Source of the DNA: Eutreptiella sp. 'Long Island Sound 2002'
Lineage: Eukaryota > Euglenozoa > Euglenophyceae > Eutreptiales > Eutreptiaceae
Length of the DNA stretch: 64,000 bases
Assembly: GCA_964036045.1 (NCBI GenBank)
Contig: OZ038380.1
Span: forward strand, 70,881,137-70,945,136
Reading direction: 5' to 3'
Part shown: piece by piece, positions 8,063-62,876 of the stretch
How the letters are laid out: each line of letters opens with the position of its first letter
Numbering within the stretch: the stretch's first letter is position 1
Translations under genes and position numbers: made by a program
The notes under the pieces: model-generated
What the model was told of the DNA's origin: nothing
Database searches by the model: none
What the model saw: only the letters and a program-made list of their open reading frames with translations

Positions 8063-8321
8063 AAACCTATCCGTGAGTCGGCAATGAGCACAAAAGCGAT
8101 GCAAAGACAAAAAACGTTCTCAAACGGCCATGACCTGCGGACACAAATAGTTTACAGTGCTGCCACGCACTATTTCACCGTTCATTTCCACTGGTTGGTG
8201 GTTTCTGCTTTCTGTCTCACCATATGGTATTGCCTCTCTACACTAGCTCTATGTACCCGATAAATCTCTGGCGCATAGTATGTATGTATGCCATGACACA
8301 TTCATGCATAGGTTCCACATC
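8063..8321 (-). repeat. Penelope terminal direct repeat (pseudo-LTR), left copy
   Basis: This 259-bp sequence begins AAACCTATCCGTGAG and ends GGTTCCACATC. It is nearly identical to 21557-21815 (for example one G/A difference in AAAAAACGTTC). Directly inside it, at 8325-8342, is a CCCCCACA-GG-TGTGGGGG hairpin. Confidence 0.88.
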
Positions 8322-8352
8322 AAGCCCCCACAGGTGTGGGGGCTGCCTGCGG

Positions 8353-12700: not shown

Positions 12701-13622
12701 GCGCATGCGCCGTGTGCAGGCTGTACATGGTCATCGGTATATTCTGTGGCGTGGTGCCAGCTGCGAGCGGGAGTGCGACGTGTGGGGTGTAGGGTTGTAC
12801 ATGCACAGTTATATCGAACTCCTGGGGTCTACAGAGGACTTTCAATTTCTGTTCATCCTCCCACCATTGTTGTGGTGCCAATACTATAACTCGTGTGTTA
12901 CGGCAGTGCGCAAGAGTGCGTTGTATGTCACATACCATGTCCTGATATTCAGGCCTCCACTCCCAGGATCTCGGGATCCACATGGCCGTGGTGTGGTCGT
13001 GCGCCTGTGCATACTGCTCCAGGGTAGGCCACGCTCCCAGGATGTGCTCCTCGGTGAGTGTAGATTGGTATCGCAGCGGATGCAGTGTTGTGTGGACTTG
13101 CTCCTGCAAAAGCAGTGTGCAGTTTAGCGCCACGTGACATGCACGATATAGTTTGTGTCTCTTGGCTCGCGATATACAGTGCGTGCCTGTGCGCGCTCCC
13201 TGATCCCTGGGTCCTGTCTGTCTGCGCTCCGCCTCTGGCGCTGTCGCACGCAGTGTGTCAGGATGATACTGCAAGGTGGACAGTGGCTGCAGCCGCGTCA
13301 GTGTGCTATTTGTGGTCGCCTGCAGCCACTTTGTGAGCCATTGCAGATATAGCAGTGTCTGTGTGGGTGTTACCTCTGTCCACATGCTGATGCCGTGCGC
13401 TCGGGTCCATGCATCCCACATTGGCCTCAGCGCCCTCCATCTATGGGTGTAGTGACCTAGAGCTCGTACCATGGCATGCGGGGGATAATCTGATTCATAT
13501 ATGAAATGTGCATGTTTATTTTCACGCATATACAGTGTAGCTTTATTGAGCTGTGCCCGTTGCAGCTCAATCTCTCTGATTCGTGCATCAATACCTGCCC
13601 TGATAGCCTGCATACTGGCCAT
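9684..13622 (-). CDS. Penelope-like GIY-YIG endonuclease / reverse transcriptase
   Basis: 1312 aa from a true ATG. A long N-terminal region is followed by a GIY-YIG-like nuclease at about residues 414-510 (WVYAAYHPKYG, then RYWGQTG, and a conserved Asn/Glu region near 496-510). A CCGC zinc motif lies at 674-677 and a RIDKN motif at 799-803. The RT domain follows, with motif A FIEFDLERMF (Asp 1044), motif B TGVGIGGMLS (about 1137-1146) and motif C RFRDN (1175-1179). The second catalytic Asp of the usual xDD is therefore Asn. The nuclease lying before the RT is the permuted order of the Naiad/Chlamys type of Penelope element, opposite to classical Penelope. No internal stop or frameshift is seen, so this ORF looks intact. 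It would nick DNA and copy element RNA by target priming. Confidence 0.88.
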   Translation of the reverse strand: MASMQAIRAGIDARIREIELQRAQLNKATLYMRENKHAHFIYESDYPPHAMVRALGHYTHRWRALRPMWDAWTRAHGISMWTEVTPTQTLLYLQWLTKWLQATTNSTLTRLQPLSTLQYHPDTLRATAPEAERRQTGPRDQGARTGTHCISRAKRHKLYRACHVALNCTLLLQEQVHTTLHPLRYQSTLTEEHILGAWPTLEQYAQAHDHTTAMWIPRSWEWRPEYQDMVCDIQRTLAHCRNTRVIVLAPQQWWEDEQKLKVLCRPQEFDITVHVQPYTPHVALPLAAGTTPQNIPMTMYSLHTAHARPIHYGLVSNHVGHAVFAWGMRMLYPDHSLETDRTPASDSREIFWSVWRRECTLRRKLQHTRGTWEQCIDSMGRVNEVIQHCPVRWVRELAQLSRYRKTSDLREKGTWVYAAYHPKYGLRYWGQTGAKTEPRSVTDRFYEEVRDALSWYKLYGSKGIRGPPYIHTMHHIGVEGWVIIPLYKVHPMQADNIEMHLIRTKPHCLNAVRIARRQYMRHLVRSRLYRHITDTALADPRRWEQLIHAKRISLEPTDCLRLLALAEKAMDPVKYGMLRRRVLTYFHNTTGIDLPPTLTLRIPYASARTAKDIRAAWHAFLNTVPYSTHVRRYLRHCLRIPLTVPPRAVQVFCQDRVEQSISTLQKWTTDSTVCCGCRDLPQQADVCQRMCIYQTDDKAEILGGAMQQLSQMRLNQPIMPAVQELHRQLAAELQVIIRDLPKVKPFRIQPFISTVHQHGAALMHGHTPDAHTMSDQVAGITMTHIQQFRKEHPNWRVVRIDKNTDCYVVMCWLLYMTIIIRAFHGSENYKKVYTYQTAQKAQDVLFIYYYVLTLVHPVLRTHIRHTAMRQQLSQAVPPLKSYQITREKLKALGLTLTEDLLLPVDFSTQEATDRWPATQRQLLQAAEAILDDASAQHGNLRVPRHIGSQLPWKVPGVRVSMKNSGLPLPDDEAKTREIFTQARHPHQPLLRKVGRAQQVLLRQYTEMFQTMQINTQAELINCFLKPAREYYMTQGITPAFIEFDLERMFPNIPRAKVNQAYENLHTRMTQMQKIVRGQQDTYVSIGKQKDKTMDCVGGRSRDHYNVFSVSDIRSLIEYDLHCNNLFVMGDEVWEQSTGVGIGGMLSAANADTVLTSTESDVRWGSLLPLRVKVGRFRDNIFVICPEEELAVWLPFLHSKLSELYNMPLKVESVGSTATFLECQLSVQGTEITWCMKNKVLQSKLTTSPPVSRYVHRSLPHARQVVTAMAQSLASKSVQIASTDICKVWNFSQAIWEMIRSTMNTRLRGGDPR

Positions 13623-13879
13623 CTCCTGCAGTACTGTGGTGGCAATTTTATGGCCATGTGCTTTAAGCTCTTTAAGCTCTGCCTGATATTGCGCATCTGG
13701 GGTCTGTGTCTCAGGCTGTTCGACACATTTTCTCCACCATGTGCACGTCCATCTGCATGCCGGTATTTTCCAACCGCGTGCTATCTTGCGTATGGCTGGT
13801 GTGTGGTCTGTGTGTTTGTGTGTGTCGTGCAGCGCGTAGTATGTACAGCCACATACCCAATCGGGTAGACTACTCGGTT

Positions 13880-14986
13880 TTAGTTTAAAGCCACATCATT
13901 TGCCGTCGGCTCGTTCATGAGGTGCTTCGGATCTCCTTCGATTGATATTTCGGGCATTGGGATCCCGGTCTCCGTCCACGGCATTGCTTTGAAGCTGCCG
14001 TCCTTCACGCTTGTGATTGTGACCTTCGATGCACGCCATGTTGTCATCCCCGGCACTTTGTACACGACGTGTGCGACCCCTCCTTGTACCATATCCATCG
14101 GTGTCGCTCCTCCCGGTCGTGAACGCAACTCCGGTGCCGCCGGCTTTCCCGCACCATCTTTAAGTAGTGTCTCGATGCAATTCATCCCGTCTCCCAGATC
14201 GTTCACCTTGTGCTTTAATTCTCCCATGTCCTTGTCGATCTGCTCAAACTTCTCGTCCGTTTTCTTCATGTACGCCGTTGGCACTTCGTCCGGTACCATC
14301 TCCACATCTTCATTTGGGCTCCCCGCGGGCGTTGTTGGTTGTGTCTGCACCTGGGGTTCCTTCACGGGCGTCGTTGTTCCAAAATCGATTGTTCCGGACC
14401 CAAACTCCACTGGATTGTCGTGTCCATGTGCTCCTTGGCGTACCCATTTCTCTAGCGTGACCGGTTTTCCATTATCCGTGGCCTTGGCGAGCCTCTTTTC
14501 CAGCATGTCTCGTTCGGCGTCGTCACGTGTTTGCACCAACACGTGATTGTCCCTCGGGTACATGAGACCCAGTCCTGGTAGGAGATTGCGCAGCGTGTTG
14601 ACGTCGTTATCTGTGGCCTTTCTTTCAAAACGCACCATGACGCCGTGCTCAATATTCATGTCGAGTAGTGGTTTTGCGAATTGCGGTAATGCTGCCGCCA
14701 TGATCTCGCGTATCTCCACTGCATTTGACTTCGATGGGTACGGTGTGTATCGTGTGGCTCCTTTTCCCGCTTGCCCTTTGCCACCGGCTTTTCCCCAGCA
14801 ATCTTCCGTCTTATGTCCCACATATTTTTGGTGATAGTCACACCAGTATTTTGGTCGGCCATCTGGGAAGGTGCCTACTTGGCCTCCGCCTTGTGTCGTC
14901 GGTGGAGCGCCTCCGGTATTTGCCGTCGGGCAGTCTCTTGCAAGGTGTCCTTGGCCTCCACATCGATAACACGTTACGCTCTGCAT
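13880..14986 (-). CDS. Penelope-element ORF1, CCHC zinc-knuckle (Gag-like) protein
   Basis: 368 aa from ATG at 14984-14986, upstream of and in the same direction as the RT ORF, with a 257-bp gap. It starts with a CCHC knuckle (CYRCGGQGHLARDC, residues 5-18) and has a second Cys/His cluster (WCDYHQKYVGHKTEDCW, about 48-64). Then come a Gly/Lys-rich linker, a region of ~100 ordered residues (MIEHGVMVRFERKAT, LRNLLPGLGLMYPRDNHVLVQ), and a coiled-coil-like segment (EKFEQIDKDMGELKHKVNDL). Nucleic-acid binding and packaging of the element RNA is the likely role, by analogy with ORF1 or Gag proteins. The reading frame is unbroken. Confidence 0.72.
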   Translation of the reverse strand: MQSVTCYRCGGQGHLARDCPTANTGGAPPTTQGGGQVGTFPDGRPKYWCDYHQKYVGHKTEDCWGKAGGKGQAGKGATRYTPYPSKSNAVEIREIMAAALPQFAKPLLDMNIEHGVMVRFERKATDNDVNTLRNLLPGLGLMYPRDNHVLVQTRDDAERDMLEKRLAKATDNGKPVTLEKWVRQGAHGHDNPVEFGSGTIDFGTTTPVKEPQVQTQPTTPAGSPNEDVEMVPDEVPTAYMKKTDEKFEQIDKDMGELKHKVNDLGDGMNCIETLLKDGAGKPAAPELRSRPGGATPMDMVQGGVAHVVYKVPGMTTWRASKVTITSVKDGSFKAMPWTETGIPMPEISIEGDPKHLMNEPTANDVALN

Positions 14987-15092
14987 GTGCTATAGTGTAC
15001 AACTCTCTTTGACTCCGATCGTGTAGTCCTTGATTATCTCGTAAGGTATTCCACGCAAAAGTCAGGCGTGTGCTTGCGAGAAATGGTAACCA

Positions 15093-15128
15093 TGGGATGC
15101 AGCGTTCTAGGGCGTGGTGCGGAACCCC
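15093..15128 (+). repeat. Left terminal inverted repeat of the oxygenase transposon
   Basis: 36 bp from TGGGATGC to GGAACCCC. It is the exact reverse complement of 21520-21555. Confidence 0.92.
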
Positions 15129-15284
15129 TAGTTAGAACGCAATTTCTGGAACACCCACCTACCCTCAATTTTGGGGCAAACCACCTAAAAAAATGGATTC
15201 AGCACCCTCAAAAACCCCCCATCCCCTTTCTTTCCCCACATAACCCGCATCATGGGGGTGGTTTTTGGGGGGGGGGTCAAAGAG

Positions 15285-15412
15285 TTAGAGCACAGTTAGA
15301 ACAGAGTTAGAACGCAGTTAGAGCACCTTGCTCTAACTAGTTATCGCGCTAGTTATCGCGCGATAACTCAGTTATCGCGCAGTTATCGCGGGTAGTTATC
15401 GCGCACCCCTCC
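15285..15412. repeat. GTTAGAGC / GTTATCGCG motif array, 3' side of the transposase gene
   Basis: About five GTTAGAGC or GTTAGAAC-type units are followed by six or so GTTATCGCG units, including the palindrome GTTATCGCGCGATAAC. It lies just beyond the transposase stop codon. The same motifs form the other arrays of the element. Confidence 0.85.
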
Positions 15413-15473
15413 TCCCTCCCTCCCTAGGACAAACAACACAAAACACTTGGCACAAAGCATCTGTGGTCGTTTT

Positions 15474-17147
15474 TCATACAAAGTCATCAATGTCTGTGGC
15501 CTTGGCTGCCTCCAGTCCCAAAAGCCCTTGCTCCAGGGCGTTCATGGACATGCAATGGTGCATGTGGCGGAGGGACATACTTGGCCTCAGCAAAGACCAA
15601 CCCTTAAAACAATTTTTGAGCCTCCTCTTGTAAGGCCCATGCCGATACTCCGTTGGGATGGAGGAAAACTGAAAAATGTTCCTCCATTTCTCGGCAAAAA
15701 AGGTGGAATGTGCCAAGCACCAATGGATCCACCTGGTGGGGGACCAACCTGAGTCTCCCCACGCTTTTGAAAATTTTGTGGTCAACGCACGGTGGCGTTC
15801 CACTTGGGTTAGAGTGTACAACTCCCTCACCCTCCAAAGCTCATACAAACCCTCAATGCATTTCACCATGACATGCACAACAACCCATAACATAGGTCCC
15901 CCAGGGGTCCTCACTGTGGGGACATGCTCTTTGAGGCATTCCACAAATTGCCTTTGGAAGGGGGGGGAGGTTAGGAAAACTTTGGTGCTGGTTAGATCGA
16001 AATCTTTTTCTGTGGCCCTCGAGGCCGAAGGGAGGCGTTCCCTAAGAGGGATGCCTGCGGTCTCATCCTTGAGGGCTTGTTTGAAGGCCTGCAAAGCTGC
16101 AAGAGCTTGGGCCTTACCAGGGGTACTAGGGGGGAGGGCCTGGAGGGTGGTCTCAATGCGCTTTGCAATGCCGTTTAGGATGCGGCATGCTGCATGTTGG
16201 TAGTCCCCCGGCCGCCTATCAGGGGTCACACTTCTCAAGAATGACCCCCATCTTGAGGTGGACTCCACCCCCATTTGCTCAACAATCCCATTGGGGTCTT
16301 TGCACAACCAACACTTAGACCCAGCCCCCCCCATTGCTTGCATCCCCTTCCCATCCCCTGTCAAAATGACAGTGCAAGTCAAAAATTGGTTTTGAAAGAG
16401 GACAACGTCCTCTTCCACATCCCTCACCTCTTGGTTGAGGTTGGCGGAGATGTCAAGGCTTCTCAAAAAAGCCTGTTCATCCCCGCCATCCATGCAAAAC
16501 CATGAGGCCCATAGCTTCACCTTCGAAGCATATTTTGCCCCCCCCCATACATTAACCCATACATCCGCACGGGTAGAGGATGCCTTCCACAAGGAAGTCG
16601 CATCAACTGAAATAACAATAATGGCAACGCCACTAGGGGGGGGTTTCCCAATAACTCGGGCCATAGATATTGCATTTTGCACAATTGATTGCAAAGGCAC
16701 ATGGGCAGCTGCCCTATTGCGGCCTGTGGTAGACTTTACAATGGTGGTTTGGGGAAAGTAGGGCATGATCCGTTGCCGAACGGTCCTTAGGTCCCGTTGT
16801 GTGCAACGGCGGGGCATTCGCAAAAGGGCCCGTTGGGAGAGATGCATGCTGCATGCCATGCGTAGCATGCTCAGGGCCTCATGCTCCTGAGCTGTTAATG
16901 CAAGATGGCCGCCAAGTGGGCCAGACAGGGCAGTGCACGCCCCACCACTTAAACAAACTTCGCCTTTGGTGTTGGTGCCACACACGACGTCTGGGTCACC
17001 CAATAGAACTCGCACCAGCCGCTGAACCGCCTTCAAACGCCGCCGCCGGGCCTTGGGGCACTGCAGATCGGTGTACCGCCGCAGGTTGGCTGTGTTGAGA
17101 GCCCGCAGGGCCTCATTGACAGCATTGTCCATGAAGAATAAGAGGAC
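15474..17147 (-). CDS. DDE-type transposase (3' exon of a possible polyprotein)
   Basis: The first ATG is at 17130-17132, giving 552 aa. The open frame extends upstream to a CAG at 17148-17150 that looks like a splice acceptor after a pyrimidine-rich run. Likely catalytic residues, counted from that ATG, are Asp 177 (VISVDATSLWK), Asp 260 (LTGDGKG) and Glu 495 (SSIPTEYRHGPYKRRL). A CWLC pair at 274/277 follows the second Asp. These blocks are shared with the plus-strand homologue at 59693-61090 (SADATPLWK, TGDGKN, KCWIC, SSIPSEKRNSPFKR), the best evidence that they matter. The N-terminus has a Cys-rich segment (VVCGTNTKGEVCLSGGAC). hAT-like and KDZ-like DDE proteins are candidates for its family. 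The frame is intact. Confidence 0.72.
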   Translation of the reverse strand, partial: VLLFFMDNAVNEALRALNTANLRRYTDLQCPKARRRRLKAVQRLVRVLLGDPDVVCGTNTKGEVCLSGGACTALSGPLGGHLALTAQEHEALSMLRMACSMHLSQRALLRMPRRCTQRDLRTVRQRIMPYFPQTTIVKSTTGRNRAAAHVPLQSIVQNAISMARVIGKPPPSGVAIIVISVDATSLWKASSTRADVWVNVWGGAKYASKVKLWASWFCMDGGDEQAFLRSLDISANLNQEVRDVEEDVVLFQNQFLTCTVILTGDGKGMQAMGGAGSKCWLCKDPNGIVEQMGVESTSRWGSFLRSVTPDRRPGDYQHAACRILNGIAKRIETTLQALPPSTPGKAQALAALQAFKQALKDETAGIPLRERLPSASRATEKDFDLTSTKVFLTSPPFQRQFVECLKEHVPTVRTPGGPMLWVVVHVMVKCIEGLYELWRVRELYTLTQVERHRALTTKFSKAWGDSGWSPTRWIHWCLAHSTFFAEKWRNIFQFSSIPTEYRHGPYKRRLKNCFKGWSLLRPSMSLRHMHHCMSMNALEQGLLGLEAAKATDIDDFV

Positions 17148-17617
17148 CTGGGCGCGAAATGAGGGAGGGTTTTGAAGCAAGGGCCCAAAAAACACACGCG
17201 ATAACCCACGCGATAACCCCCGCGATAACTAGGTTATCGCGCGATAACCCCCGCGATAACCCCCCGCGATAACTAGTTAGAGCGCGATAACCCCCCGCGA
17301 TAACTAGTTAGAGCACCCAGTTAGAGCGCGATAACCCCCGCGATAACTAGTTAGAGCAGGGGTTAGTGCGCACTAACTGGTGGTGTTAGAGCAAGCGTTG
17401 GGCACCCTAAAACCTTCACAAACGTTGATTTTGCACCCAGGAAACCTTGGAGATGTCAACAATGTGCAGGCACGGGGTACATGGCGCCACAATCACAAAT
17501 TCAAATCAGTCACACAGTCTTTTGGATGATTTGGATAGGGTGCCTCTCAAATGTTCCGGGCTAGACAGTAATAGAAATAGTGAACAATAATCGAATCAGC
17601 TGGAGGGGTTAGAGGAC
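17148..17617 (-). other. Candidate intron 2 of the oxygenase-transposase gene, holding a motif array
   Basis: On the minus strand a GT at 17617, in GGTTTTAGG^GTCCTC just before the oxygenase 2 stop, and an AG at 17148, in CATTTCGCGCCCAG^GTCCTC, would join the two frames in phase 0. GTCCTC is present on both sides, so the exact site is ambiguous, and the donor is weak after its GT. It contains the array at 17200-17400 and ~200 bp without recognisable features (17401-17608). Confidence 0.4.
17200..17400. repeat. CGCGATAAC / GTTAGAGC motif array between oxygenase 2 and transposase
   Basis: More than ten CGCGATAAC or GTTATCGCG units alternate with CTAGTTAGAGC units. The 16-bp palindrome GTTATCGCGCGATAAC occurs at the centre of one cluster. 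Confidence 0.88.
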
Positions 17618-18797
17618 CCTAAAACCCATGGACAGCAGCTGCTGCCGCCACACAGGCGTGCAGTGCAGAACCCCCCCCGCACTATAAAAAATCACGCTCC
17701 ATCGCTCGCCCTCCCATGACAATGGAGCGTGTAGTGCCCTGGTGTTGAACAACACCGGGGCTTGGGGGGTGGCGGTGCATGCCCAACCCTCCACCGCCCT
17801 ACCCTTGCACACACGGGTGTGCCGCTTTTTTTCCCTCAAGGAGGGATTCAGCAGGCCACCACTCTCCACCCAAAACTCACCCCCCGTGAAAGACCCCACA
17901 CACACAATAAGCGCCATGGGCGCCCCATCCCGCAAATGGGAGTGGAGGCCCATGGTGTCCGTCCCTTGGGGGCGAACAATTTGGATGCTACACCATGTGA
18001 ACCATGGTGGAGCATTGGAGGTGCAATACCCATTGAGGTCTGCTACCAAGGGGGTGAGGGCAGGCCTGAGGGTAGCAGCGGCCATGTGGGTCGCCCTAAA
18101 ATTAGAGGGGTTGGGGTTTCCACTTCCCACGAGGCCAAAGTGGCACATGTCCACTTGGGCCCCATATCGCTCCTCCCCACGAAAAATGCCCTTGGGCAAC
18201 CCCCTGAGCAAATCCACTAGTCATTGGCTCCCACTCCTACTCCCGCTACCCTGACTCTGCAACCCTTGCGGCGCCAGCCCCTGCTGGGCCTGCTGCGCCC
18301 CGAAGGAGGCACAGAGGGTGGAGGTGAGGCTGCGCACCTGCGCCTCAGCCACCCCCAAGCGCTGCCCAAGGTCATCCCCCCTCCTCCGCTGCCCCTCCAC
18401 CTCCACCCTAAGCTGGGCCACCTCCACCTCCGCCTTCCGCCTCCCCTCCTGGGCCTCCCTCAGGGCCTCCCTCATCGCCTCCACCTCCTCCCCCCTCTTG
18501 GCGGCCAGGTTGAGGGCCTGGTCCAGGGCACGCTGGGTGTTGCCCTGGGCCTTTTCGGCCTTTGCCAAGGCCGACCTGTGGTCGGCCGACCGACCCTTGG
18601 CCAGTGCGGGCCTCATCCCCAGGCTCCCCAAACCGCCACGACGCCCCCTCCGGCAGCCTCTTCTCCCCCTCCAGCTCCAACCGGGCCGCCACCGGCTTGG
18701 CGGGCCGTGCCCCCGCTGCTGCTGCCGCTCCGCCCGCTGCGTCGGCTGCCTGGGCGTCGTCCTTGACGAAGATGCGGGGCAGCTGCAAGATGGTGGC
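17609..18797 (-). pseudogene. Coiled-coil plus TET/JBP-like 2OG-Fe(II) oxygenase (one in-frame TGA, one frame change)
   Basis: The region opens after a strong-looking acceptor (TTTTTTTCAG, ending 18798) with an ordered stretch (ILQLPRIFVKDD) and an Ala-rich linker. A frame change at about 18600-18640 leads into a coiled coil (EEVEAMREALREAQEGRRKAE). TGA at 18221-18223 is in the same frame as the following oxygenase, so either a nonsense mutation or recoding separates them. The oxygenase, numbered from 18217, has LHSHLRD (His 92/94, Asp 97), a strand with GGEF, and RALHAPLSWEGERWSVIFYS (His 163, Arg 172). That pattern of proximal His/Asp, then His and Arg about 9 apart is the layout of TET/JBP-type 2OG dioxygenases acting on modified bases. 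The base specificity is unknown. It may still be functional if the breaks are introns I cannot resolve. Confidence 0.62.
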
Positions 18798-19039
18798 CTG
18801 AAAAAAACAAAAGAAACAAAAAAAAAACACGCGATAACCCGCGCGATAACCCCCGCGATAACTAGGTTATCGCGCGATAACCACCGCGATAACCCCCCGC
18901 GATAACCCCGCGATAACTAGTTAGAACGCGATAACCTAGCGCGATAACTAGTTAGAGCACCTAGTTAGAACGCGATAACCTAGCGCGATAACTAGTTAGA
19001 GCAGGGGTTAGAGCAGGGTGTTGTGGGAGGTTTTCACAC
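18798..19039 (-). other. Candidate intron 1 of the oxygenase-transposase gene, holding a motif array
   Basis: The donor is CACCAG^GTGTGA, with GT at 19039-19038, two codons before the apparent oxygenase 1 stop. The acceptor is TTTGTTTTTTTCAG^GCC, ending at 18798. Joining them is phase 0 and continues into the ILQLPRIFVKDD reading frame. The 242 bp between are almost entirely CGCGATAAC / GTTAGAGC units. Confidence 0.55.
18828..19016. repeat. CGCGATAAC / GTTAGAGC motif array between oxygenase 1 and the coiled-coil region
   Basis: This dense array of CGCGATAACCC and CTAGTTAGAGC/GTTAGAAC units includes a tandem copy of a ~50-bp block (CTAGTTAGAACGCGATAACC... repeated). Confidence 0.88.
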
Positions 19040-21169
19040 CTGGTGACATGGACACATGCCTTGGCCCTCCTTCTTGGCGTCGTCCAGCACCAGGCCCAGC
19101 CTCCGCAGCCACACGAAGTCCGTGACGGCCGCATACTCCCCCACCTGCCGCCACTCCACCACCTGGGCCACCCCCTCCGCCTCAGGGGCCACCCTTGCCA
19201 CTCCCCCATACAACCCCCTCCTCACCACCAAAATGGTGCCCGCCGGCACCTTCATCCCAACATGCCCTTGCAGGGTGGGCCAGGGCAGTGCCTCCCCATG
19301 GCACACCTTGGCCAAGGGGCACTGATCGGGGTGGCCTGCGACCGCCCCCGCCTCCTCATTAGTGAGGGGGGCAATCACCTCCCTCCCAACCCCCCACCCC
19401 GACAACAAAAAATGCCCGGTGGTTGTTCCCACCGGGAGCAAGCACTGAGCAGATTGCTCAATGCTGACCCCATTGGGGTCCACCACCACCTCCTCCTCCT
19501 CCCCCCCCTCCACCTCCTCCCCCTCCTGGCATGGCACACAAAGGCCATCTTTGTGGGCGGTGCACAAAATCAGCCGATTGCATCCGTAGCAATTGGCTAC
19601 CACCTTCCCCCTACACCTAACCGCCCCATCACACTGGACTGTCCTGGCCACCCGGCCACCAGGTGCCCCCAGCTGGGGCCTCTTAATGGACTGGGTCACG
19701 TGCAGGTTGGGGAATCGAAGATTCCCCCCCACGGTAAGCTCAATGGCAAAAAATGCCATGAGGCGGGGGTGGGACACCCCCGTGGGGGAGGCCTTGGGAA
19801 TCCCCGACCCCCGGTGTACATCAAGGGCATTAAAAAAAAAGGCAGTGCCTCTCTTGAATGGCACAGCCCTCTCCACCCAAGGGTCAGGGAACCCCGAACT
19901 GCTGGAGGGCACAAAAAGAAAATGTGTCAATGACCCATCCTCCTCCTCATGATTATGGGTTAGCATAATAAGGCAATTGACAATCAATGTGCCTTCAGGA
20001 ATGGTGTAGGGGGGGGCGTCGCGATGGAGGTGCTGGGGGGTGTGGTCATAGCTCGAAATTTCGGCCATGTCAAGGATGGTGCAGCTCCATCCAACCCCCC
20101 CCACCACAGTCTTCTTCGCCGTCTCAAGCACACGATCTGCCACCCTTTTGAGGACTGGCAGATCATGGAGCTTGTGGGGGTTGTGCCTGTGGTGGTTGGC
20201 ACCCCCATAGTTGCCATACAATGTACGGCGGGTCCCAGAATCTTGGGGCCTGCCGACAATGGGGGGGTTCTCATTGAAAATGGGTGCCTTCTCTGAGAGA
20301 GGCACCCTATCCAAATCATCCAAAAGACTTTGGAGCTGCACATCACTCAAAAAATCGTGCTCCAGGAGGTGGTTGACCACCAGCTTCCCCCCCACGGTGA
20401 GCACAAGGTCATTGGGGTCCCTATTAAAGGCCCCCAAGGGCTCGGCGGCAACCACCTCCTCCGCCTCCCCAATAAGGGGGGGTGTTGCCCCAAATGGAAA
20501 AAGAATCACCCCCTGCCCCGAAACAATGTTGGGAGTGGTGACCCCATACCACTCACGCTCCCACTCCCTTGTGGGGCAAAGGGAGTGCATGGGGAGCTTG
20601 TTTTCGGGGTCGTCAGTGCAGACCCGGCGGGTGTTGTGGGTGAGGGGTTGGGGGAACCAACCATCCGACTGCCCCTTCCCCTTACCAGGTCGGATCCTTA
20701 CCTTCTGGACACTAATCATGAGGGGGTTGTGGGGCTTCTCCTTCCTCCCCCCAGCCCCCACCCCCCCCGCATCCTCCTCCTCCTCCTCCACTTCCTCCAC
20801 TTCCTCCTCCTCCTGACCCACATAGAGGGTCGTCTTCGTCCCCGCACCCTTCTCGGCATGGGCGGTGACGGACTCCACCACCGCGTCCACATCGTCCGGA
20901 TGAAGCTGGATCAAAAATCCAGCAACCCCTGGATTTACCTCTAGCAACTCGAAGATGTAGTTGCTGAGAACCAGGGGGTCTCGGTTGTCCGCCATGAAGG
21001 GGGACTTATGGACAAGGAGTCCAAAGTCCACACCATGTTCAAAGCGGGTCGCCACAGGGCGCCTCACATTGGCATCACCCATCGTAAACCCCTCAGGACC
21101 GCCAAGGCGACGGACCCCAAGGAGCTTTTGATGGTGCTCGCACCAAGCGTGGGCAGCAGCAAGGGCCAT
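19034..21169 (-). CDS. 2OG-Fe(II) oxygenase with C-terminal zinc module (oxygenase 1)
   Basis: 711 aa from ATG at 21167-21169. Numbering from the TTG two codons upstream, a ~110-residue N-terminal domain is followed by an acidic linker (QEEEEVEEVEEEEED, about 121-135). The oxygenase core then has HLHRD (His 384, Asp 386), DVHRGSG (His 454) and HPRLMAFF (Arg 471), the iron and 2-oxoglutarate ligand set. After it comes a Cys/His cluster (Cys 515, 521, 529, 532, 538, His 541, Cys 546, 549) resembling a B-box or treble-clef zinc fold. A C-terminal domain of ~150 residues contains LLPVGTTTGHFLL and AGTILVVRRGLYGG. All blocks recur in order in 57805-59744, with the same HxD, His and Cys spacing. 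The frame is intact. The substrate is unknown, and nucleic acid is likely given the neighbours. The apparent end (HQV stop) coincides with a good splice donor. Confidence 0.8.
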   Translation of the reverse strand: MALAAAHAWCEHHQKLLGVRRLGGPEGFTMGDANVRRPVATRFEHGVDFGLLVHKSPFMADNRDPLVLSNYIFELLEVNPGVAGFLIQLHPDDVDAVVESVTAHAEKGAGTKTTLYVGQEEEEVEEVEEEEEDAGGVGAGGRKEKPHNPLMISVQKVRIRPGKGKGQSDGWFPQPLTHNTRRVCTDDPENKLPMHSLCPTREWEREWYGVTTPNIVSGQGVILFPFGATPPLIGEAEEVVAAEPLGAFNRDPNDLVLTVGGKLVVNHLLEHDFLSDVQLQSLLDDLDRVPLSEKAPIFNENPPIVGRPQDSGTRRTLYGNYGGANHHRHNPHKLHDLPVLKRVADRVLETAKKTVVGGVGWSCTILDMAEISSYDHTPQHLHRDAPPYTIPEGTLIVNCLIMLTHNHEEEDGSLTHFLFVPSSSSGFPDPWVERAVPFKRGTAFFFNALDVHRGSGIPKASPTGVSHPRLMAFFAIELTVGGNLRFPNLHVTQSIKRPQLGAPGGRVARTVQCDGAVRCRGKVVANCYGCNRLILCTAHKDGLCVPCQEGEEVEGGEEEEVVVDPNGVSIEQSAQCLLPVGTTTGHFLLSGWGVGREVIAPLTNEEAGAVAGHPDQCPLAKVCHGEALPWPTLQGHVGMKVPAGTILVVRRGLYGGVARVAPEAEGVAQVVEWRQVGEYAAVTDFVWLRRLGLVLDDAKKEGQGMCPCHQV

Positions 21170-21227
21170 TATCAAAGAATATGAAAGCTTTGAGAGCTAA
21201 AGCGAAAAGGGGAAACATAAAATGAAG

Positions 21228-21378
21228 CGCGATAACCCACGCGATAACCCACGCGATAACTAGTTATCGCGCGATAACCCCCGCGATAACCCCCGCGATA
21301 ACTAGGTTATCGCGCGATAACCCACGCGATAACTAGTGCTCTAACCCCGTTCTAACCCCGCGATAACTAGTTAGAGCA
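21228..21378. repeat. CGCGATAAC array upstream of oxygenase 1
   Basis: About ten CGCGATAAC/GTTATCGCG units and CTAGTTAGAGC sit 60 bp upstream of the oxygenase 1 start, in the promoter or 5' leader position. Homologous DNA is at 62451-62560. Confidence 0.88.
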
Positions 21379-21519
21379 CACAAAGATCAAATCGCAAAAA
21401 GTGCAAAACGGGCAATATCGAGCAAACGAAACATGGAAGGCACATTGTTGCATCATAGTGCACCCATGTAACATGTGAAATTCCGGGTTCCAACCATATT
21501 AACAACACCCAAAATTGGG

Positions 21520-21555
21520 GGGGTTCCGCACCACGCCCTAGAACGCTGCATCCCA
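21520..21555 (-). repeat. Right terminal inverted repeat of the oxygenase transposon
   Basis: GGGGTTCCGCACC...GCATCCCA is the reverse complement of 15093-15128. It abuts the right-hand Penelope terminal repeat after one C. Confidence 0.92.
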
Positions 21556-21556
21556 C

Positions 21557-21815
21557 AAACCTATCCGTGAGTCGGCAATGAGCACAAAAGCGATGCAAAG
21601 ACAAAAAACATTCTCAAACGGCCATGACCTGCGGACACAAATAGTTTACAGTGCTGCCACGCACTATTTCACCGTTCATTTCCACTGGTTGGTGGTTTCT
21701 GCTTTCTGTCTCACCATATGGTATTGCCTCTCTACACTAGCTCTATGTACCCGATAAATCTCTGGCGCATAGTATGTATGTATGCCATGACACATTCATG
21801 CATAGGTTCCACATC
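21557..21815 (-). repeat. Penelope terminal direct repeat (pseudo-LTR), right copy
   Basis: Second copy of 8063-8321 in the same orientation. On the minus strand it is upstream of the element's ORFs and would carry the promoter. Confidence 0.88.
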
Positions 21816-21883
21816 AACCCTACACCAGCAGCAAGCAGCAGGAGAGACACAAACACAGTGCTGAAACGACTATAAACTTTTCT
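21816..21883 (+). repeat. 3' LTR of chromovirus copy 1, terminal segment
   Basis: AACCCTACACCAGC...ACTATAAACTTTTCT corresponds to the last ~68 bp of the LTRs of copy 2 (compare 52191-52257). It proves that everything between 8063 and 21815 is an insertion. Confidence 0.9.
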
Positions 21884-57170: not shown

Positions 57171-57544
57171 AACACTTCAACAACGGCATTTCTGAGTAGC
57201 CTGGGTCAAGCCCTACACGTACATATGTTTGGACTTTGCCAACTCATCGGTGACATCACTCACTCAGCTTGACCGTGACCCGCGCAGTTCTGGACACGTC
57301 ATTTGGCAACTGCTAGCTTATCGGCAAATCACCCTACTCATCAACAACCTGCCGGGTGGGCTCATGGGTGGTGCGGTGAGGTGTCGCGCGACAGGCGCTG
57401 ATGGAAAAGGGTCGTGAATTTGAAAGCGCATTTGGCGCCACACCATAATTTATATTCTGCTAAATCTCGTGAATCTGTTATTTTAAATGTTGTTTTTAGA
57501 AAATATCCAAGTGCCAGCAGCGAAAACCTATAATTCGCCTGTGC

Positions 57545-57715
57545 TGAACTACCCTTGTCGCACCCTTGTTGCGCCCTTGTTGCGCCCTTGTCGCGCCCCG
57601 TGTCGCGCCCCTTGTCGCGCGATAACACCGCTTATCGCGCCCTTATCGCGCACCCTTACCGCGCGATAACCCCCTTACCACAGCCCTTGTTGCACCCCCT
57701 TGTCGCGCCCCCTTT
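57545..57715. repeat. Subterminal array of the second oxygenase-transposon (left)
   Basis: CCCTTGTCGCGCCCC / CCCTTGTTGCGCC units are mixed with CGCGATAAC and TTATCGCG. The array at 61128-61262 carries the inverted counterparts (GGTGCAACAAGGGG, TTATCGCGCGATAA), so the two bracket the element. Confidence 0.8.
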
Positions 57716-57804
57716 TGTGTTGTATCAGTAGGTTTCCATTGCACTTTTCCCTCTTCCTTTGTTCTCACACCTTCTCTTGTGTCCGTGGGGACTTGCCGGT
57801 GGTC

Positions 57805-59744
57805 ATGGAGGCTTTGGGTGCATCCGAAGTGTGCATTGGGGATTGGGTGGAACAACATCGGCGGGTCTTGGGGACCCGAAGGGTGGTGGGACCGGGGCTG
57901 GTGTTGCAAGCTGCCACGGTAAGGGCATCTGATGAGCAGCTAACATTCGATGCAACCACCACTTTTGCCCACATCCGTGTGTCACGACAGGTTTTTGGGG
58001 AGGTCACTGGGTCGTGTCTCAGTGACATGATGTAAGCTTACCCCATTATGGATGCCAACCCCAACGTTTGGGGTTGCGCCCTTGATTTGGTGAATGCCGA
58101 CACCGATGCACTGGTGTCTGTTTTTCAAAGCAAGGTGAGCGCGAAGGTTGGAACACGGGTCACAAACTTCATCACCCCCCTTGTCCAGGAACTCGATGAA
58201 GGTGGGAAAAAAAAAACCGGGTGCCAATTTTCTGCCCAAAGGGCAAAGAAGGAAGAGGTCCCCGTGATACATCACGAGCGAGTTTTTGAGGTGAAGGACT
58301 GTGCCTCTGTTTTGCCGGTTTTTCTCTTCCTTCAAATGGGTCCATGGCCTGGGCCAACCCATACTATGGTTTCACCACCCCTTTTTTTTATACTTCCGCC
58401 ACTGTTGTTGCATGGCCATTGCATAGAGCAGATCCACCCATTGGTTCTGCTGACGAACCAAGTGAGTCCCCTGAGTGGATGGGATTCAATGAATCACTCG
58501 CAGACCTTGATCGCTTGGAGCACTGTGTTTTGCGTGCCACTTTGAGTGCCTCATTGTACAAATTACAAACTGAGGTTGCTACCCTCGATCCGCTCCAAGG
58601 CACACCAATTTTTAACGAAAGGTTTCCTTCTATTGGAAGGAAGTTTGATTTCTATGACAGGGTGCAGTTTTTTGGAAAGCATCATAGCATCCCTATCAAT
58701 GAATGGGGTCAGGATTCTCATGACTTTACACACCTTGAGAATGTTACGACAGATTTGCACCATGACATTCAGACCCAAACAGGCCTGCCCTTGAATATTG
58801 AGATTGTTGCCTATGTTGGTGCACTTGGTTCTGCTCAACATTGGCATAGGGATTTTCCCCGCAGGGTGATCCCCGAGTGACATCATGCATTTGCTGTTTT
58901 TTTCCCTTTGAATTATCAACTTAAGGGAAACCAGTGGATACATGGTTCATCGCTGGGTTTTCCTGTTCCTTGGGCTGTCCGGGAGATGGATGCTGGTTTG
59001 GGAGACGCATTTGTGTTGAATGTGTGTTCCATTCATCGTGGTGGTGGCTTGCCGGAGGGTGTGCCGCCGGTTGATGAGATCTCACAGAGAAGGAATGTAC
59101 GGTGGGTGGGTTTCATGCTTCTGTCTACCACTGCCCTGCCCAAAAATGTCACGGAAGGTATTAACCCACCGTTTTGGGCAGAAGACCCTTCCGTGACATT
59201 AGATGCTCCCGATGTTGCCCACTGTGGTGTCAAGTCATGCAGAAAACGCCCTACCTCCATTTGTTTTGGGTGTAAAGAAAAGGTTTGGTGCCCCACACAC
59301 AAGACCCAGATGTGTGCATCATGTGATGCTCCTGTGACTGCCCAGGATGTACCGTCCTCCTCTAGAGCTGGGGATGTCGCGATGCCAGACAGTAATGGCT
59401 CTGTTTCTGTGGATTTCCCATACACATGTTTTTTCGCTGTGGGCACGACATCTGTTCATCTCATGTGGCACCCTCAGAAGCCAAGGGTGCACAAGGCACG
59501 TGATGAGTTGGACTGTCCTTGTTGGGAAGCGATGCATGGAGGTGGTGAAATTGGCACCCCCACCCCCGAGGATTCTCACCTGATCCGTGCTGATGCTGGA
59601 ACCGTGTTGGTGTTGCGACATGGGAGGTCGGGGGGCTTTGCATTGGGTGGTGACAAGGAGGGTGTTGGCAAAGAGAAAGCGGAGGTGTTTGGTTGGTACA
59701 TGGTCCCCAAGGAACACAAAATGGCTTACGCATGCAGCCACTGA
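57805..59744 (+). pseudogene. 2OG-Fe(II) oxygenase homologue (oxygenase 1 type)
   Basis: ATG at 57805 begins MEALGASEVCIGDWVEQHRR, aligned with the N-terminus of the 19034-21169 protein. TAA at 58033-58035 interrupts. The frame changes near 58330-58344. The core then has QHWHRDFP (HxD, near 58836-58850), TGA at 58878-58880, SIHRGGG (distal His near 59030) and RWVGFMLL. The zinc module keeps the Cys/His spacing (CGVKSCRKRPTSICFGCKEK, then CPTH and CASC, 59222-59330). The C-terminal domain has FFAVGTTSVHLMW and AGTVLVLRHGRSGG. TAA at 58033 overlaps a GTAAGC that would be a good splice donor, so some breaks might be introns. No matching acceptor that preserves the homologous residues was found. 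The end overlaps the transposase start in another frame. Confidence 0.75.
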
Positions 59745-61090
59745 AGAAAGTCTCCCGGAAGCAACAACAGAAACGTTTGAAAATGGCTGAGCAGATTCTT
59801 AGGTCACTGTTACAGACACGTGCACCTCGGGCCTCAGCGGGCAACAAGCTTGCTGAGGTTGCCAACCACCAAATTAGTTTGTCGAAAGCTGCCAAAACAT
59901 TTAAGACCCATGGCCCCGACTTCATTGTGGTGTTGTCGGCTGATGCCACCCCTTTATGGAAACCATCTGCAACTCGGTGTGACATTTCTGTCCACTGTTG
60001 GCAACAACCAAGTGATGCAGGGGCCCCTAACCTATGGCCAAATTGGTGGGCCATGTGGGGGGGTGATGACACACAATTCATGCTAGCCATGGAAACGGCA
60101 CATGACCTCAATGGTCAGGTGCAGGATTTGTGTCACAACTGTGACATTGTGTGGGAAGGGAAAACACTAGGGTTCAAGTGTGTCATCACGGGGGATGGGA
60201 AAAATATGCATGCGGGGAACCCCTCCTCCAAATCCAAGTGTTGGATTTGTGAGGAAGATAATGGCCTAGCATTTTTTGTAGGAGACATGAAGGGGGGGTT
60301 GAGGTGCTGTGCTTACCTCAGGTGCATCCCAACCGCGGGGAGAGTAAGTGACTACGTGCATGCAACATGTAGAATCCTGTGCATCCTCGTGAAAAGGCTA
60401 AGGGGGGAGTTCCACCAAAGAGGGATCCATGTTGGGGTGCGTGAGCTAGACGGCGAGATGCACGAGATCAAAGAACTTTGCAAGGGGATCCCAGAGGCAG
60501 AGAGGATTGCACCGAGGCGGGCCAAAGAGGGAAGTTTTGACCTTACAAGTGCCAATGCCTTCATGGCCAACCCCCAATGGGCAGACAATATTGTCACTAT
60601 TGCCAAGGCACGTACGGGGAATGTGGAGACCCCTGCTGGGCCTTTGGTATGGGTGGTCCTTCGTACCCTCTTGCACCATTTTGCACATATCCATAGGTTT
60701 TGGAGGCAAAAAGAATTTTTTATAGATAGTGATGTTGCCATGTACACTAATGCGGTGGACCGCTTCCGCGAGGCATGGGAGGACTTAGGGTGGAAGGTGA
60801 GCATGTGGGTCCATTGGACATATGCTCACTCACCTTATTTTGCGGAGGCATATAGGAATATATATACATTTTCAAGCATTCCCAGTGAAAAAAGGAATAG
60901 CCCTTTCAAGAGGGACCTACACAACAGTTGTAAAGGATGGGCTCTCTTAAAGCCAAGGTTATCTAGGCTTTCCATGGGCCATGTTGTAAATATGAATAAC
61001 CTGGACATGGGGTTGCTTGCACGGAAGGTACAGGACGCAGAGGGGAGAGACAAAGCAGAAATCCCACTAGGACGTCGCAGGGTGCGGTAG
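59693..61090 (+). CDS. DDE-type transposase homologue of the second oxygenase-transposon
   Basis: 465 codons are open. ATG at 59693, 59731 or 59782 are candidate starts. Conserved blocks with the minus-strand homologue are LSADATPLWKPSATR (first Asp), ITGDGKNM (second Asp), KCWICEEDNG, TPAGPLVWVV and SSIPSEKRNSPFKRDL with NSCKGWALLKP (Glu). It lacks the ~120 N-terminal residues, including the Cys-rich part of the other protein. In the first element the oxygenase and transposase frames look spliced together, and here they overlap by 52 nt in different frames. That fits a former fusion with a lost intron or a frameshift. The uninterrupted frame suggests recent activity or constraint. Confidence 0.7.
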   Translation: MVHGPQGTQNGLRMQPLKKVSRKQQQKRLKMAEQILRSLLQTRAPRASAGNKLAEVANHQISLSKAAKTFKTHGPDFIVVLSADATPLWKPSATRCDISVHCWQQPSDAGAPNLWPNWWAMWGGDDTQFMLAMETAHDLNGQVQDLCHNCDIVWEGKTLGFKCVITGDGKNMHAGNPSSKSKCWICEEDNGLAFFVGDMKGGLRCCAYLRCIPTAGRVSDYVHATCRILCILVKRLRGEFHQRGIHVGVRELDGEMHEIKELCKGIPEAERIAPRRAKEGSFDLTSANAFMANPQWADNIVTIAKARTGNVETPAGPLVWVVLRTLLHHFAHIHRFWRQKEFFIDSDVAMYTNAVDRFREAWEDLGWKVSMWVHWTYAHSPYFAEAYRNIYTFSSIPSEKRNSPFKRDLHNSCKGWALLKPRLSRLSMGHVVNMNNLDMGLLARKVQDAEGRDKAEIPLGRRRVR

Positions 61091-61127
61091 ACAAGGGATG
61101 TCACAAAGTGGTTGTCTTGTGCATGCT

Positions 61128-61262
61128 TCATAGGGTGCAACAAGGTGTGCAACAAGGGGTGCAACAAGGGGGGTTATCGCGCGATAAGGGGGTGCAACAA
61201 GGGGTGCAACAAGGGCGGGTTGTTGCGCAACAAGGGGTGCAAGAAGGGTGCAACTAGGGGTT
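61128..61262. repeat. Subterminal array of the second oxygenase-transposon (right)
   Basis: GGTGCAACAAGGGGTGCAACAAGGGG units surround TTATCGCGCGATAA, the inverse of 57545-57715. It starts about 40 bp after the transposase stop. Confidence 0.82.
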
Positions 61263-61828
61263 GTACCCATTTTTGAAAAAGCTTAACAATGGAGTACGTG
61301 GTTTGGAAACACAGTCCCTATAGGTCATTTGGGCCCCCTCAGGACACATGACCCCTTAAAACCCCCCATGAGTACTACAAGACACTTTTTAGGTGTTTAC
61401 AAGTTTGGGTGCAACAAGGTACCTTTTTCCATCAGGTCCCAGTGCACCACACCACAGGGGAGGAGCTGCAGGCTTGCGCGGTGGCTGCGGATCCCTGGGG
61501 GCTTGGACAGCAGCCTTGGCTCTGGTCTTCTTGCCAGGCATGTCCCATGAAAGAGAAGCCCCTAAGAGTGAAAGAGGCAATAACATGGATTTTGCGTTCC
61601 CAAAAGGCCCAATTTGCGTCCGCAACAGAATTCACGAGACAAGTAAATAAGCCCTTTTACGTGCGTAACTGACCCTTTTTTGCGTCCGAGCTAAACTTAT
61701 AGTAACCACGCAAATACACCCTTTTACGCGCGAAAGAACGCAGTAAAGGACAAACGTTGCACGTACATGGGGGTGTTGTTGTGCGAGAGACGTAAAAGTG
61801 GCAAAACGCTTCCGTTCTCACCCATATT
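61263..61828. other. Unassigned stretch with one short minus-strand ORF
   Basis: A minus-strand frame from ATG near 61538 to 61389 encodes a ~49-residue basic, Pro-rich peptide (MPGKKTRAKAAVQAPRDPQP). It looks like the N-terminus of a DNA-binding protein but stops after WCGALGPDGKRYLVAPK. Nothing else is recognised. Confidence 0.35.
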
Positions 61829-62450
61829 TCAGCCTATTTGCATGCAAATATGTCCGTTACACATCATAAGAGAGGGGAACCATCCATCCGACTTCCCCTT
61901 CGCCTTACCAGGTCGAATCCTTACCTTCTGGACACTAATCATGAGGGGGTTCAGGGGTTTCTCCTCCCCCCTCCCAGCCCCTACCTCCATCACCTCCTCC
62001 ACTTCCCCCTCCACTTCCTCCTCTTCCTCCTGACCCACATAAAGGGTCGTCTTCGTCCCCGCACCCTTCTCGGCATGGGCGGTGACGGACTTCACCACCG
62101 CATCTACATCCTCCGGATGAAGCTGGATCACAAATCCAGCAACCCCTGGATTTACCTCTAGCAACTCGAACATGTAGTTGCTGAGGACCAGGGGTCTTTC
62201 TCGTCAGCCATGAAGGGGGACTTATGGACGATGAGTCCAAAGTCCACACCATGTTCAAAGCGAGGCCACAGGGCGCCTCGCGTTGACGTTACCCATCGTA
62301 AACCCCTCGGGACCGCCAAGGCGACAGACCCCAAGGAGCTTTTGATGGTGCTCGCAGCAAGCGTGGGCAGCAGCAAGGGCCATTACAAAGGATATGAAAG
62401 CTTTGAGAGCTAAAGCAAAGAGGGGAAGCATAAAACAAGAGAGAATGAAG
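61829..62450 (-). pseudogene. Truncated 5' end of an oxygenase 1 gene from a third oxygenase-transposon
   Basis: 61866-62450 matches 20643-21225 closely on the same strand: the acidic linker, NPGVAGFVIQLHPEDVDAVV, FEHGVDFGLIVHKSPFMAD, and the start region (AAHAC for AAHAW). Small deletions near 62190 and 62260 break the frame. It ends at about 61866 in the middle of the N-terminal half, so the catalytic core is absent. Confidence 0.85.
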
Positions 62451-62560
62451 CGCGATAACCTACGCGATAACTTGCGCGATAACTAGGTTATCGCGCGATA
62501 ACCCCCGCGATAACCCCGCCAATAACTAGGTTATCGTGCGATAACCCACGGGATAACTAA
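62451..62560. repeat. CGCGATAAC array of the third oxygenase-transposon fragment
   Basis: Corresponds to 21228-21330, with mutations such as CCAATAAC and GTGCGATAAC. Similarity ends at about 62560, where unrelated DNA begins. No inverted terminal repeat follows. Confidence 0.85.
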
Positions 62561-62876
62561 GGTAAGATAGCCAATTACTGTACCAAATCAATGCTACAAA
62601 AATTATAGGCCGCAATTAAAGCTGGCAGCTAGAAAATAGCCAATGTTTTAGGTCAAATCCTGAAGTTTTCAAATGTTTTTGGTTCAATATGCGAAATCTA
62701 ACTGGTATTGGAGAAATCGGTGCCAGACGGGGCCGCGCAGAGATCACGGGATCGCCGTCGCGCCTGTTTCTGTGCCAACAAAGAAGAGAGAAGATCTCAG
62801 GTATTTTACGACAAAATTCATAATAAATTAGACAGAAATCTGCGAAATTAATTTTTCTCTGGATGGATGTGCTCAG
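62561..62876. other. Unassigned stretch before the pogo-like gene
   Basis: AT-rich sequence with no repeat or ORF that I can support. It may hold the promoter of the following gene. Confidence 0.35.

Follow-up and report, generated by a model that had tools for sequence, protein, structure and literature searches.

An E1 transposon family of Eutreptiella with a RAG1/CACTA-like transposase motif and an oxygenase-like gene interrupted by a conserved in-frame UGA

DNA transposons that carry an oxygenase are described from fungi, where TET/JBP genes are found on EnSpm, ESTA and Plavaka elements (Kojima 2025, PMC12730594). Here we describe E1, a DNA transposon found in a stretch of 64,000 nucleotides (nt) of the euglenophyte Eutreptiella sp. 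'Long Island Sound 2002' (assembly GCA_964036045.1, contig OZ038380.1, positions 70,881,137 to 70,945,136; this whole stretch is called the window below). E1 resembles the TET-containing CMCT transposons in its short target duplication, in the carriage of an oxygenase-like gene and in a putative DDE transposase whose last E is preceded by C(2)C and H(3-4)H. Unlike in these transposons, the oxygenase-like domains of E1, named OG1 and OG2, showed no TET/JBP Pfam match, are two in number, and appear to be connected across an intron, a coiled coil and a UGA codon. The termini differ as well, being TGG..CCA in E1. However, PlavakaA has TGT..ACA termini (PMC12730594), which shows that the terminal sequence is no strict membership requirement. 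Taken together, we consider it reasonably probable that E1 belongs to a RAG1/CACTA-like transposon superfamily in which one gene, gene A, specifies a two-oxygenase protein by readthrough of a UGA codon.

Like E1, the KDZ elements (Kyakuja, Dileera, Zisupton) carry an oxygenase gene together with a transposase gene, and a preliminary description of this locus had compared it with them. Membership in KDZ was rejected, since the target duplication of E1 is 2 base pairs (bp) compared to 8 bp in Zisupton (PMC12730594), the transposase motif is of the RAG1/CMCT type and no Pfam match was obtained. Membership of OG1 and OG2 in TET/JBP was also rejected within the reach of Pfam, in which no TET/JBP model matched, a result with which very distant kinship is still compatible; very distant TET/JBP members are described as able to escape such profile searches (PMC12730594). 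In the E1 transposase, D, D, C2C, H4H and E are ordered and spaced as in Transib/RAG1, including an E located 20 residues after the second H, but E1 differs in its 2-bp duplication, its accessory gene and the lack of a detectable sequence match. Transib elements generate a 5-bp target duplication. CACTA/En-Spm elements encode two products, TnpA and TnpD, contain subterminal repeat arrays and have CACTA termini. E1 is similar to these in its two predicted products and its subterminal arrays, whereas TnpA is not an oxygenase and the E1 termini are not CACTA. Readthrough genes such as LDHB, MDH1 and AQP4, and alphavirus-like contexts, share with part of the E1 copies the sequence UGA CUA G and a conserved in-frame extension; unlike these, E1 is a DNA transposon, a whole enzyme-like domain would be added, and the context varies by family. 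No description of a DNA transposon with joined oxygenases or with conserved UGA recoding was found among the open-licence papers listed (titles and starts of abstracts), and no relatives of the element were found in the viral contigs, prokaryote contigs and plasmids searched.

Ends, copies and gene layout of E1

The perfect 36-bp inverted ends reported in the preliminary description were recovered at both sides of E1 (Table 1), and in a shuffle control using the first 25 bases of the end with up to three mismatches, two matches were obtained in none of 100 shuffles. E1 is integrated into a retroelement with 266-bp terminal repeats (8062-8327 and 21556-21820) that are 99.2% identical. From position 8059, the unoccupied paralogous repeat reads AACCAAACC and the occupied one reads AACCA-E1-CAAACC, which supports a 2-bp target duplication, CA. 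The host retroelement (8062-21820) contains large minus-strand open reading frames at 8353-14989, one with a CCHC knuckle and another of 1403 amino acids (aa) that showed no Pfam match above cut-off and by eye resembles Penelope-like elements; E1 lies a few bases inside one of its repeats.

Copies were searched for in one genome (2.28-Gb assembly, 2,205 contigs). The first 208 bp at the transposase side showed 100% identity at 40 genome places scored among the matches listed (1122 first-look candidates). E1 is present in many copies in the source genome, and the four families described below include many young copies. E1 copies and other loci were picked by hand and are not a random sample. 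Six of the 20 E1 copies fetched lacked an exact second end within the stretch fetched, and a 2-bp target duplication was found in all 14 loci with both exact ends, being scored on the inner pairs in L015 and L019, which have more than two end copies each. Twelve of these 14 copies were shorter than 7 kb and represent internal-deletion derivatives. The termini are TGGGATG..CATCCCA in E1, TGGTG.. in the related family E2 and TGGGG.. in family E4. A target duplication, CC, flanks the E4 copy L029, while for the E2 copy L030 none was matched at the ends used.

The E1 copy in the window is damaged. Its ORF2 exon comprises 574 nt compared to 1206 nt in the copies L010 and L024, a loss of 632 nt that is also indicated by protein P0089 (219 members), which shows the full-length form of ORF2. 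This loss resulted in a frame shift near 18609, and the frame is further interrupted by a TGA at 18223-18221, between the coiled coil and OG2, so that the proposed protein is not encoded by the window copy. Seven of the 20 fetched copies were examined in detail, and all frames were open in L010, L016 and L024 (the exact far end of L024 was not within its stretch). In these intact copies an OG1 exon of 2124 nt is followed by an intron of 242-243 nt and an ORF2 exon of 1200-1206 nt ending at the UGA. This gives 1108-1110 aa up to the UGA and 203 or 211 aa of OG2 after it, and a further 477-491 nt separate OG2 from the ATG of a 552-aa transposase. By sequence comparison, gene A very probably consists of OG1, a phase-0 intron, the ORF2 coiled coil, an in-frame UGA and OG2, and gene B of the transposase. 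The single protein of about 1,600 residues suggested previously is thus not what the intact copies specify. Of the three same-strand coding blocks on which that suggestion was built, the minus-strand orientation was upheld, but in the window copy the second block is not one open frame.

Further full-length copies with the same order, for which a search had been suggested as a check, were found among the full copies examined of E1, E2 (L037 and L038) and E4 (L031-L033 and L035, with OG2 deletions in L032 and L035). Blocks standing apart, named previously as an argument against their linkage, were also detected, but in internal-deletion derivatives, and no change of order was seen in the full copies examined. 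Pairwise comparisons of the four parts showed 24-62% identity among E1, E2 and E4, and family E5 showed 66-69% identity to E4 over the part of OG2 available. Such low identity between families of the same layout indicates that the design is old and has been kept.

Table 1. Positions in the window of E1, its parts and two related elements (CpG o/e, observed/expected CpG ratio)
Feature	Position	Strand	Description
Target site duplication CA	15091..15092 and 21556-21557	.	flanks of the window copy
E1, DNA transposon	15093-21555		perfect 36-bp inverted ends
Terminal inverted repeat, transposase-side end	15093..15128	+	36/36 match to 21520-21555
CpG-rich CGCGATAAC/CTCTAAC array, subterminal	15281..15405	.	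CpG o/e 1.74
Putative transposase gene	15474..17132	-	552 aa and TGA stop, own ATG; D177 D260 C274 C277 H470 H475 E495
Array upstream of transposase gene	17197..17370	.	CpG o/e 1.63
OG2, oxygenase-like (HSHLRD...H...R)	17609..18220	-	203 codons, ORF2 frame, no ATG before codon 25, stop TAA
In-frame UGA, ORF2/OG2 boundary	18221..18223	-	context CAA UGA CUA GUG
ORF2 exon, coiled coil	18224..18797	-	damaged: 632 nt lost, frame shift near 18609
Predicted intron 1, phase-0 GT-AG, OG1/ORF2 boundary	18798..19039	-	comparative basis
Array within intron 1	18830..19020	.	CpG o/e 1.77
OG1 exon, 2OG-Fe(II)-like oxygenase (HRD...H) and Cys/His-rich segment	19040..21169	-	710 codons, open
Array upstream of OG1	21227..21385	.	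CpG o/e 1.99
Terminal inverted repeat, OG1-side end	21520..21555	-	pairs with 15093-15128
Family E2 relic	57378..61454	+	OG1 and transposase parts present, ORF2 and OG2 not found; approximate ends, by eye against L030
Truncated E1-like copy	61856..62570	-	OG1 N-terminal part (71% aa identity) and upstream array

OG1, ORF2 and OG2 and the repeat arrays

OG1 contains the H-x-D...H triad of 2-oxoglutarate (2OG)-Fe(II) oxygenases in E1 (LHRDAPP...VHRGSG), E2 (WHRDFP...IHRGGG) and E4 (WHRDLP...VHRGGG). The triad residues were invariant across the eight rows of the OG1 alignment. OG1 identity between families is 29-46%. The window OG1 has a 2-residue insertion (DGS-LT-HFLF) that is absent in the six relatives aligned there. 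At the boundary to ORF2, the donor CAG/GTGTGA was present in all 12 probe-matched rows (the window copy and 11 of the 20 fetched) and the acceptor TTTTTTTCAG/GC in all 10 (the window copy and nine fetched copies); the remaining fetched copies gave no match to the probes. The acceptor tract has 15 pyrimidines in 16 positions, a value reached by only 14 of the 7716 AGs that the two strands of the window contain. The intron is located at the same position in E1, E2 and E4, following C-x-C-H-Q, the junctions being MCPCHQ/ATILQLPRIF, WCTCHQ/VTVVQWPRLD and WCTCHQ/VTIGQWPRLD. ORF2 has no Met before residue 66 (in P0089, Mets occur at 1, 77, 134 and 330, position 1 being GTG in the window), and this Met-less start is conserved, with 52-60 of 58-62 residues in nine relatives and 32 of 60 in P0140. 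The phase-0 intron at this gap had been predicted previously, and on these comparisons we infer that its splicing joins OG1 to ORF2, by which the coiled coil would be linked to the first oxygenase as proposed.

OG2 of E1 showed 35% and 31% identity to its E2 and E4 relatives, and identities across the four families ranged from 31 to 69%. The E1, E2 and E4 representatives have in common H-x-H-x2-D, G-x-F-x-GG, a distal A-x-H-x-P and G-x-RWS, and the distal H and R are retained in all three. This pattern, seen together with what is generally known of the family, suggests that OG2 is a 2OG enzyme as well.

Several results weigh against such an assignment of the two domains. OG2 does not contain the canonical H-x-D/E...H triad but H-x-H-x2-D instead (HSHLRD, HSHPRD and HCHPKD), so that of the two 2OG-Fe(II) domains recognised in the preliminary description, the first agrees with its triad and the second departs from it. 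An H-x-H in place of H-x-D is unusual among 2OG enzymes. The first His of the OG2 motif varies in the decayed E1 relatives P0076, P0079 and P0088, and the Arg of OG1 is not invariant, being Cys in P0048. In Pfam, OG1 was found only below cut-off (PhyH 0.017-0.029; 2OG-FeII_Oxy_3 0.068) and OG2 had no match; no TET/JBP model was listed for either domain in Pfam-A at E 10, a limit at which most matches with E beyond roughly 0.1 are already removed by the filters of HMMER. PDB sequence searches gave no meaningful match either (the best overall, Epsin 4 at E 0.013 and MdcD at E 0.98, were judged to be chance).

The element contains four CpG-rich arrays (Table 1), and CGCGATAAC was counted 49 times in the window compared to 0.17 expected. 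Three of the four arrays directly precede a pyrimidine-rich AG (21197, 18798 and 17148). The CpG o/e is 1.63-1.99 in the arrays and 0.46 elsewhere in E1, as would fit methylation of the coding DNA and protection of, or selection on, the arrays. However, CpG decay in an old copy affected 3 of 21 array sites and 9 of 31 coding sites, which is no clear difference, and nothing therefore shows the arrays to be a target. In other families (L029, L030, L031 and L037), the arrays are long near-perfect palindromes, which could fold into hairpins. An Rfam search of three loci gave weak miRNA-like matches below cut-off from these palindromic arrays (L031 and L037), and a match to snR190 in L037 (40.1 bits at a cut-off of 40) was taken as an array palindrome.

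With regard to the substrate, it is quite possible, if not favoured, that the oxygenases target proteins or RNA, OG2 being for instance a prolyl-hydroxylase-like enzyme whose substrate is host chromatin or the transposase. The sub-threshold PhyH match as the nearest Pfam relative of OG1 and the lack of a TET/JBP match both point that way, as does an Arg that, read from the sequence, lies nine residues past the distal His of OG2. This spacing is that of PHD2-type hydroxylases. A DNA target is in turn supported by CcTET, a studied transposon-related oxygenase that is described to act on 5-methylcytosine and 6-methyladenine in DNA (PMC12730594).

The UGA codon between ORF2 and OG2

ORF2 and OG2 share one frame across a single UGA codon in 29 copies, the window copy included (11 of E1, 10 of E2, five of E4 and three of E5). 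Neither UAA nor UAG was found at the junction in any of the 32 copies retaining the site, that is, these 29 and the TGA-bearing copies L012, L030 and L046. Among the 20 E1 copies, the whole junction was present in L009, L010, L016, L019 and L024 and half of it in L012, the other 14 being unmatched, and six of the eight loci L031-L038 contained it (exceptions L034 and L036). Of 20 short loci, chosen for diversity and not at random, 16 were in frame; L050 was in frame at the junction and broken further on, L046 had a TGA with a broken frame, L047 had no recognisable ORF2 and L052 had lost the site. The upstream coding part was broken or replaced in L044, L045 and L057, which were counted as local matches. 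In L030 the frame breaks after the TGA, and in L029 neither ORF2 nor OG2 was found. L047 contains a distant OG2 (40% identity) with an in-frame TGA 15 codons before the aligned part, and perhaps represents a fifth family.

Among 103 matches in a protein collection, 43 end at the junction stop (by a pattern of our own), and five stop-lost E1 proteins have W (P0063), R, R, C (P0140) and S at the UGA site. All of these residues are one step from TGA, whereas R and C are unreachable in one step from TAA or TAG. Five further proteins (P0080, P0083, P0092, P0109 and P0113) fuse ORF2 to OG2 through a deletion. The first Met of OG2 was located at codon 98 in E2 (L037), 25 in E1 (L010) and 6 in E4 (L031). 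Within the part of OG2 preceding the Met of E1, residues 3-23 were identical at 16-21 of 21 positions in eight longer relatives, which showed 76-94% identity over residues 24-170. Truncation, rearrangement or greater divergence marks the other six of the 14 compared, in which 10-21 of 20-21 positions were identical. A conserved in-frame stop, downstream constraint and the lack of an alternative start were thus found together, E4 being excepted for the start. The conserved UGA and the lack of an early OG2 AUG in E2 make programmed UGA readthrough the best explanation, and we infer from these alignments that it adds OG2 to OG1-ORF2.

Two other explanations of the UGA were rejected. A short intron excising it in E1 had as its candidate, found by eye, GTAGCG..CTCAG of 46 nt, which breaks the frame. 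Use of UGA as an ordinary sense codon is not in agreement with its absence from the L010 OG1 exon, with the joined exons of L010, L016 and L024, which contain no stop, or with the transposase itself, which ends in TGA.

Further observations bear on readthrough, some in its favour and some against it. The sequence UGA CUA G, described as an established high-readthrough motif (PMC12233894, PMC4359377), was found in just seven of the 11 E1 junctions, the other four having CUC G, while E2 has CUC (nine) or CAC (one), E4 CAG and E5 AGG. Because of the E4 AUG six codons past the UGA, OG2 could start independently there. The post-UGA pN/pS (ratio of nonsynonymous to synonymous differences) was 0.46 in E1 (22 codons), 0.60 in E2 (50) and 0.55 in E5 (40), in line with coding constraint, but these values are derived from pooled non-independent pairs (5 of 11 E1, 7 of 10 E2 and 3 of 3 E5), include dead copies, and in L042 and L040 the stretch contains a Met. 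The 15 codons before the UGA gave a pN/pS of 0.24 in E1 and 1.70 in E2. Synonymous changes are very scarce in these codons in E2 (5.5 in 222 sites; L037:4989-5033) and in E5 (none in 29 sites; L039-L041), compared to 11-12% after the UGA; the numbers are small, and the scarcity possibly reflects a readthrough signal at the nucleotide level.

That OG2 is instead an independent product, with the UGA spliced out or edited or with an internal non-AUG start (GTG in E1), is in our view unlikely. Besides the E4 AUG, a pyrimidine-AG right before the UGA in E2 and E4 (CTCAG/GAG and TTTAG/TGAG) and the Trp at the site in P0063 are in line with it. However, no frame-keeping intron was seen in E1 (by eye, non-exhaustive), L037 has no AUG for 97 codons past the UGA, the frame is identical in four families, and the GTG codon of E1 is not GTG in E2, E4 or E5.

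The transposase gene and the proposed mechanism

By motif, gene B encodes a DDE-type transposase of the RAG1/CACTA (CMCT) group, which agrees with the DDE-type DNA transposon recognised previously; no Pfam profile or PDB sequence match was obtained in support. The E1 spacing is D-83-D-14-C-3-C-193-H-5-H-20-E, and one representative each of E1, E2 and E4 showed D-D steps of 83-84, D-C of 14-15, C-H of 187-193 and H-E of 20. For mouse RAG1 (D600, D708, C727, C730, H937, H942 and E962) the corresponding steps are 108, 19, 207 and 20 (PMC4914335), so that the order is the same and the C2C, H4H and H-E steps are identical. Kojima (PMC12730594) gives C(2)C...H(4)H...E as the pattern of the CMCT group.

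In an alignment of E1, E2 and E4, the first Mets of the open transposase frames all fall in a span of four columns, similarity starts directly after them, and a repeat array precedes the gene. OG2 has a stop of its own, conserved in position in E2 and E4 and variable in E1 (two alleles), and the donor that an intron in the second gap (17617-17148) would need, AGG/GTCCTC (AGG/GTGCCC in L010), is poor. Together with the shared first Met, this makes the transposase very probably a separate gene, and the oxygenases and coiled coil would be linked to each other and not, as had been proposed, to the recombinase, which is carried on the same element. A single protein made of OG1, coiled coil, OG2 and transposase through two introns is accordingly very improbable, even though phase-0 GT and AG border the second gap, and the AG before the transposase ATG was present in the window copy and in 11 of 11 probe-matched fetched copies, with 13 pyrimidines in the 16 upstream positions. 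The CAG codon at this acceptor is kept in four of five N-extended transposase proteins and altered in the fifth (P0027). As for the UGA once more, selenocysteine is hardly credible as its meaning, for beside the conserved in-frame UGA and the Cys of stop-lost P0140 stand the other replacements W, R, R and S, a site located in a variable linker with no Cys neighbour in E1, E2 and E4, and no match to a selenocysteine insertion sequence (E up to 1) in L016, L031 and L037, of which the latter two end inside the transposase gene.

Pyrimidine-AG sites occur 27 nt before the OG1 ATG (21190-21200) and 15 nt before the transposase ATG (17145-17150), and the old copy at 61856-62570 likewise has the first of them; this suggests introns in the 5' untranslated region or spliced-leader acceptors. 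In the interval between OG2 and the transposase, a 36-nt stretch (17513-17548) is a 97% antisense copy of OG1 coding sequence (20297-20332). It is a family feature, being present also in L010 and L016, and is perhaps able to pair with mRNA.

Elsewhere in the window, two copies of a long terminal repeat-type retrotransposon were found at 154-5086 and 42451-48076, the second with reverse transcriptase and protease domains, and a GC-rich (75%) tandem array with a period of 419 bp (about 2 x 212) is located at 28665-32799. The window contained no tRNA gene, and nothing reached gathering level in Rfam.

In the mechanism that we propose, gene A would be transcribed from the OG1 end and spliced once, and its translation would give OG1-ORF2 of about 1,110 aa. 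A fraction of ribosomes would pass the UGA, and their product, extended by OG2 to about 1,320 aa, would have its two oxygenases joined by the coiled coil; readthrough would set the share of the product bearing OG2. The coiled coil may multimerise this product. Gene B, from its own ATG, would give the 552-aa transposase, which would cut at the inverted repeats and leave 2-bp duplications. The presumed oxygenases may oxidise a silencing mark on the DNA, RNA or chromatin of the element and thereby keep its expression or mobility, acting for example at the CpG-rich arrays that lie close to the ends and ahead of each block. It is only tentatively suggested, and as a whole rather doubtful, that a second enzyme of a new H-x-H-x2-D type is dosed by UGA readthrough in at least four families and that the protein modifies the CpG-rich arrays of its own element, or the RNA made from them, licensing expression and transposition.

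Retention of the UGA across four diverged families suggests that the proportion of the short and the long product is of importance, and such recoding in a DNA transposon can be put to the test. For the modification of DNA, RNA or chromatin, the element further supplies candidate enzymes whose metal site is unusual. If it holds, the model could show by what means transposons of this kind change chemical marks and so remain active.

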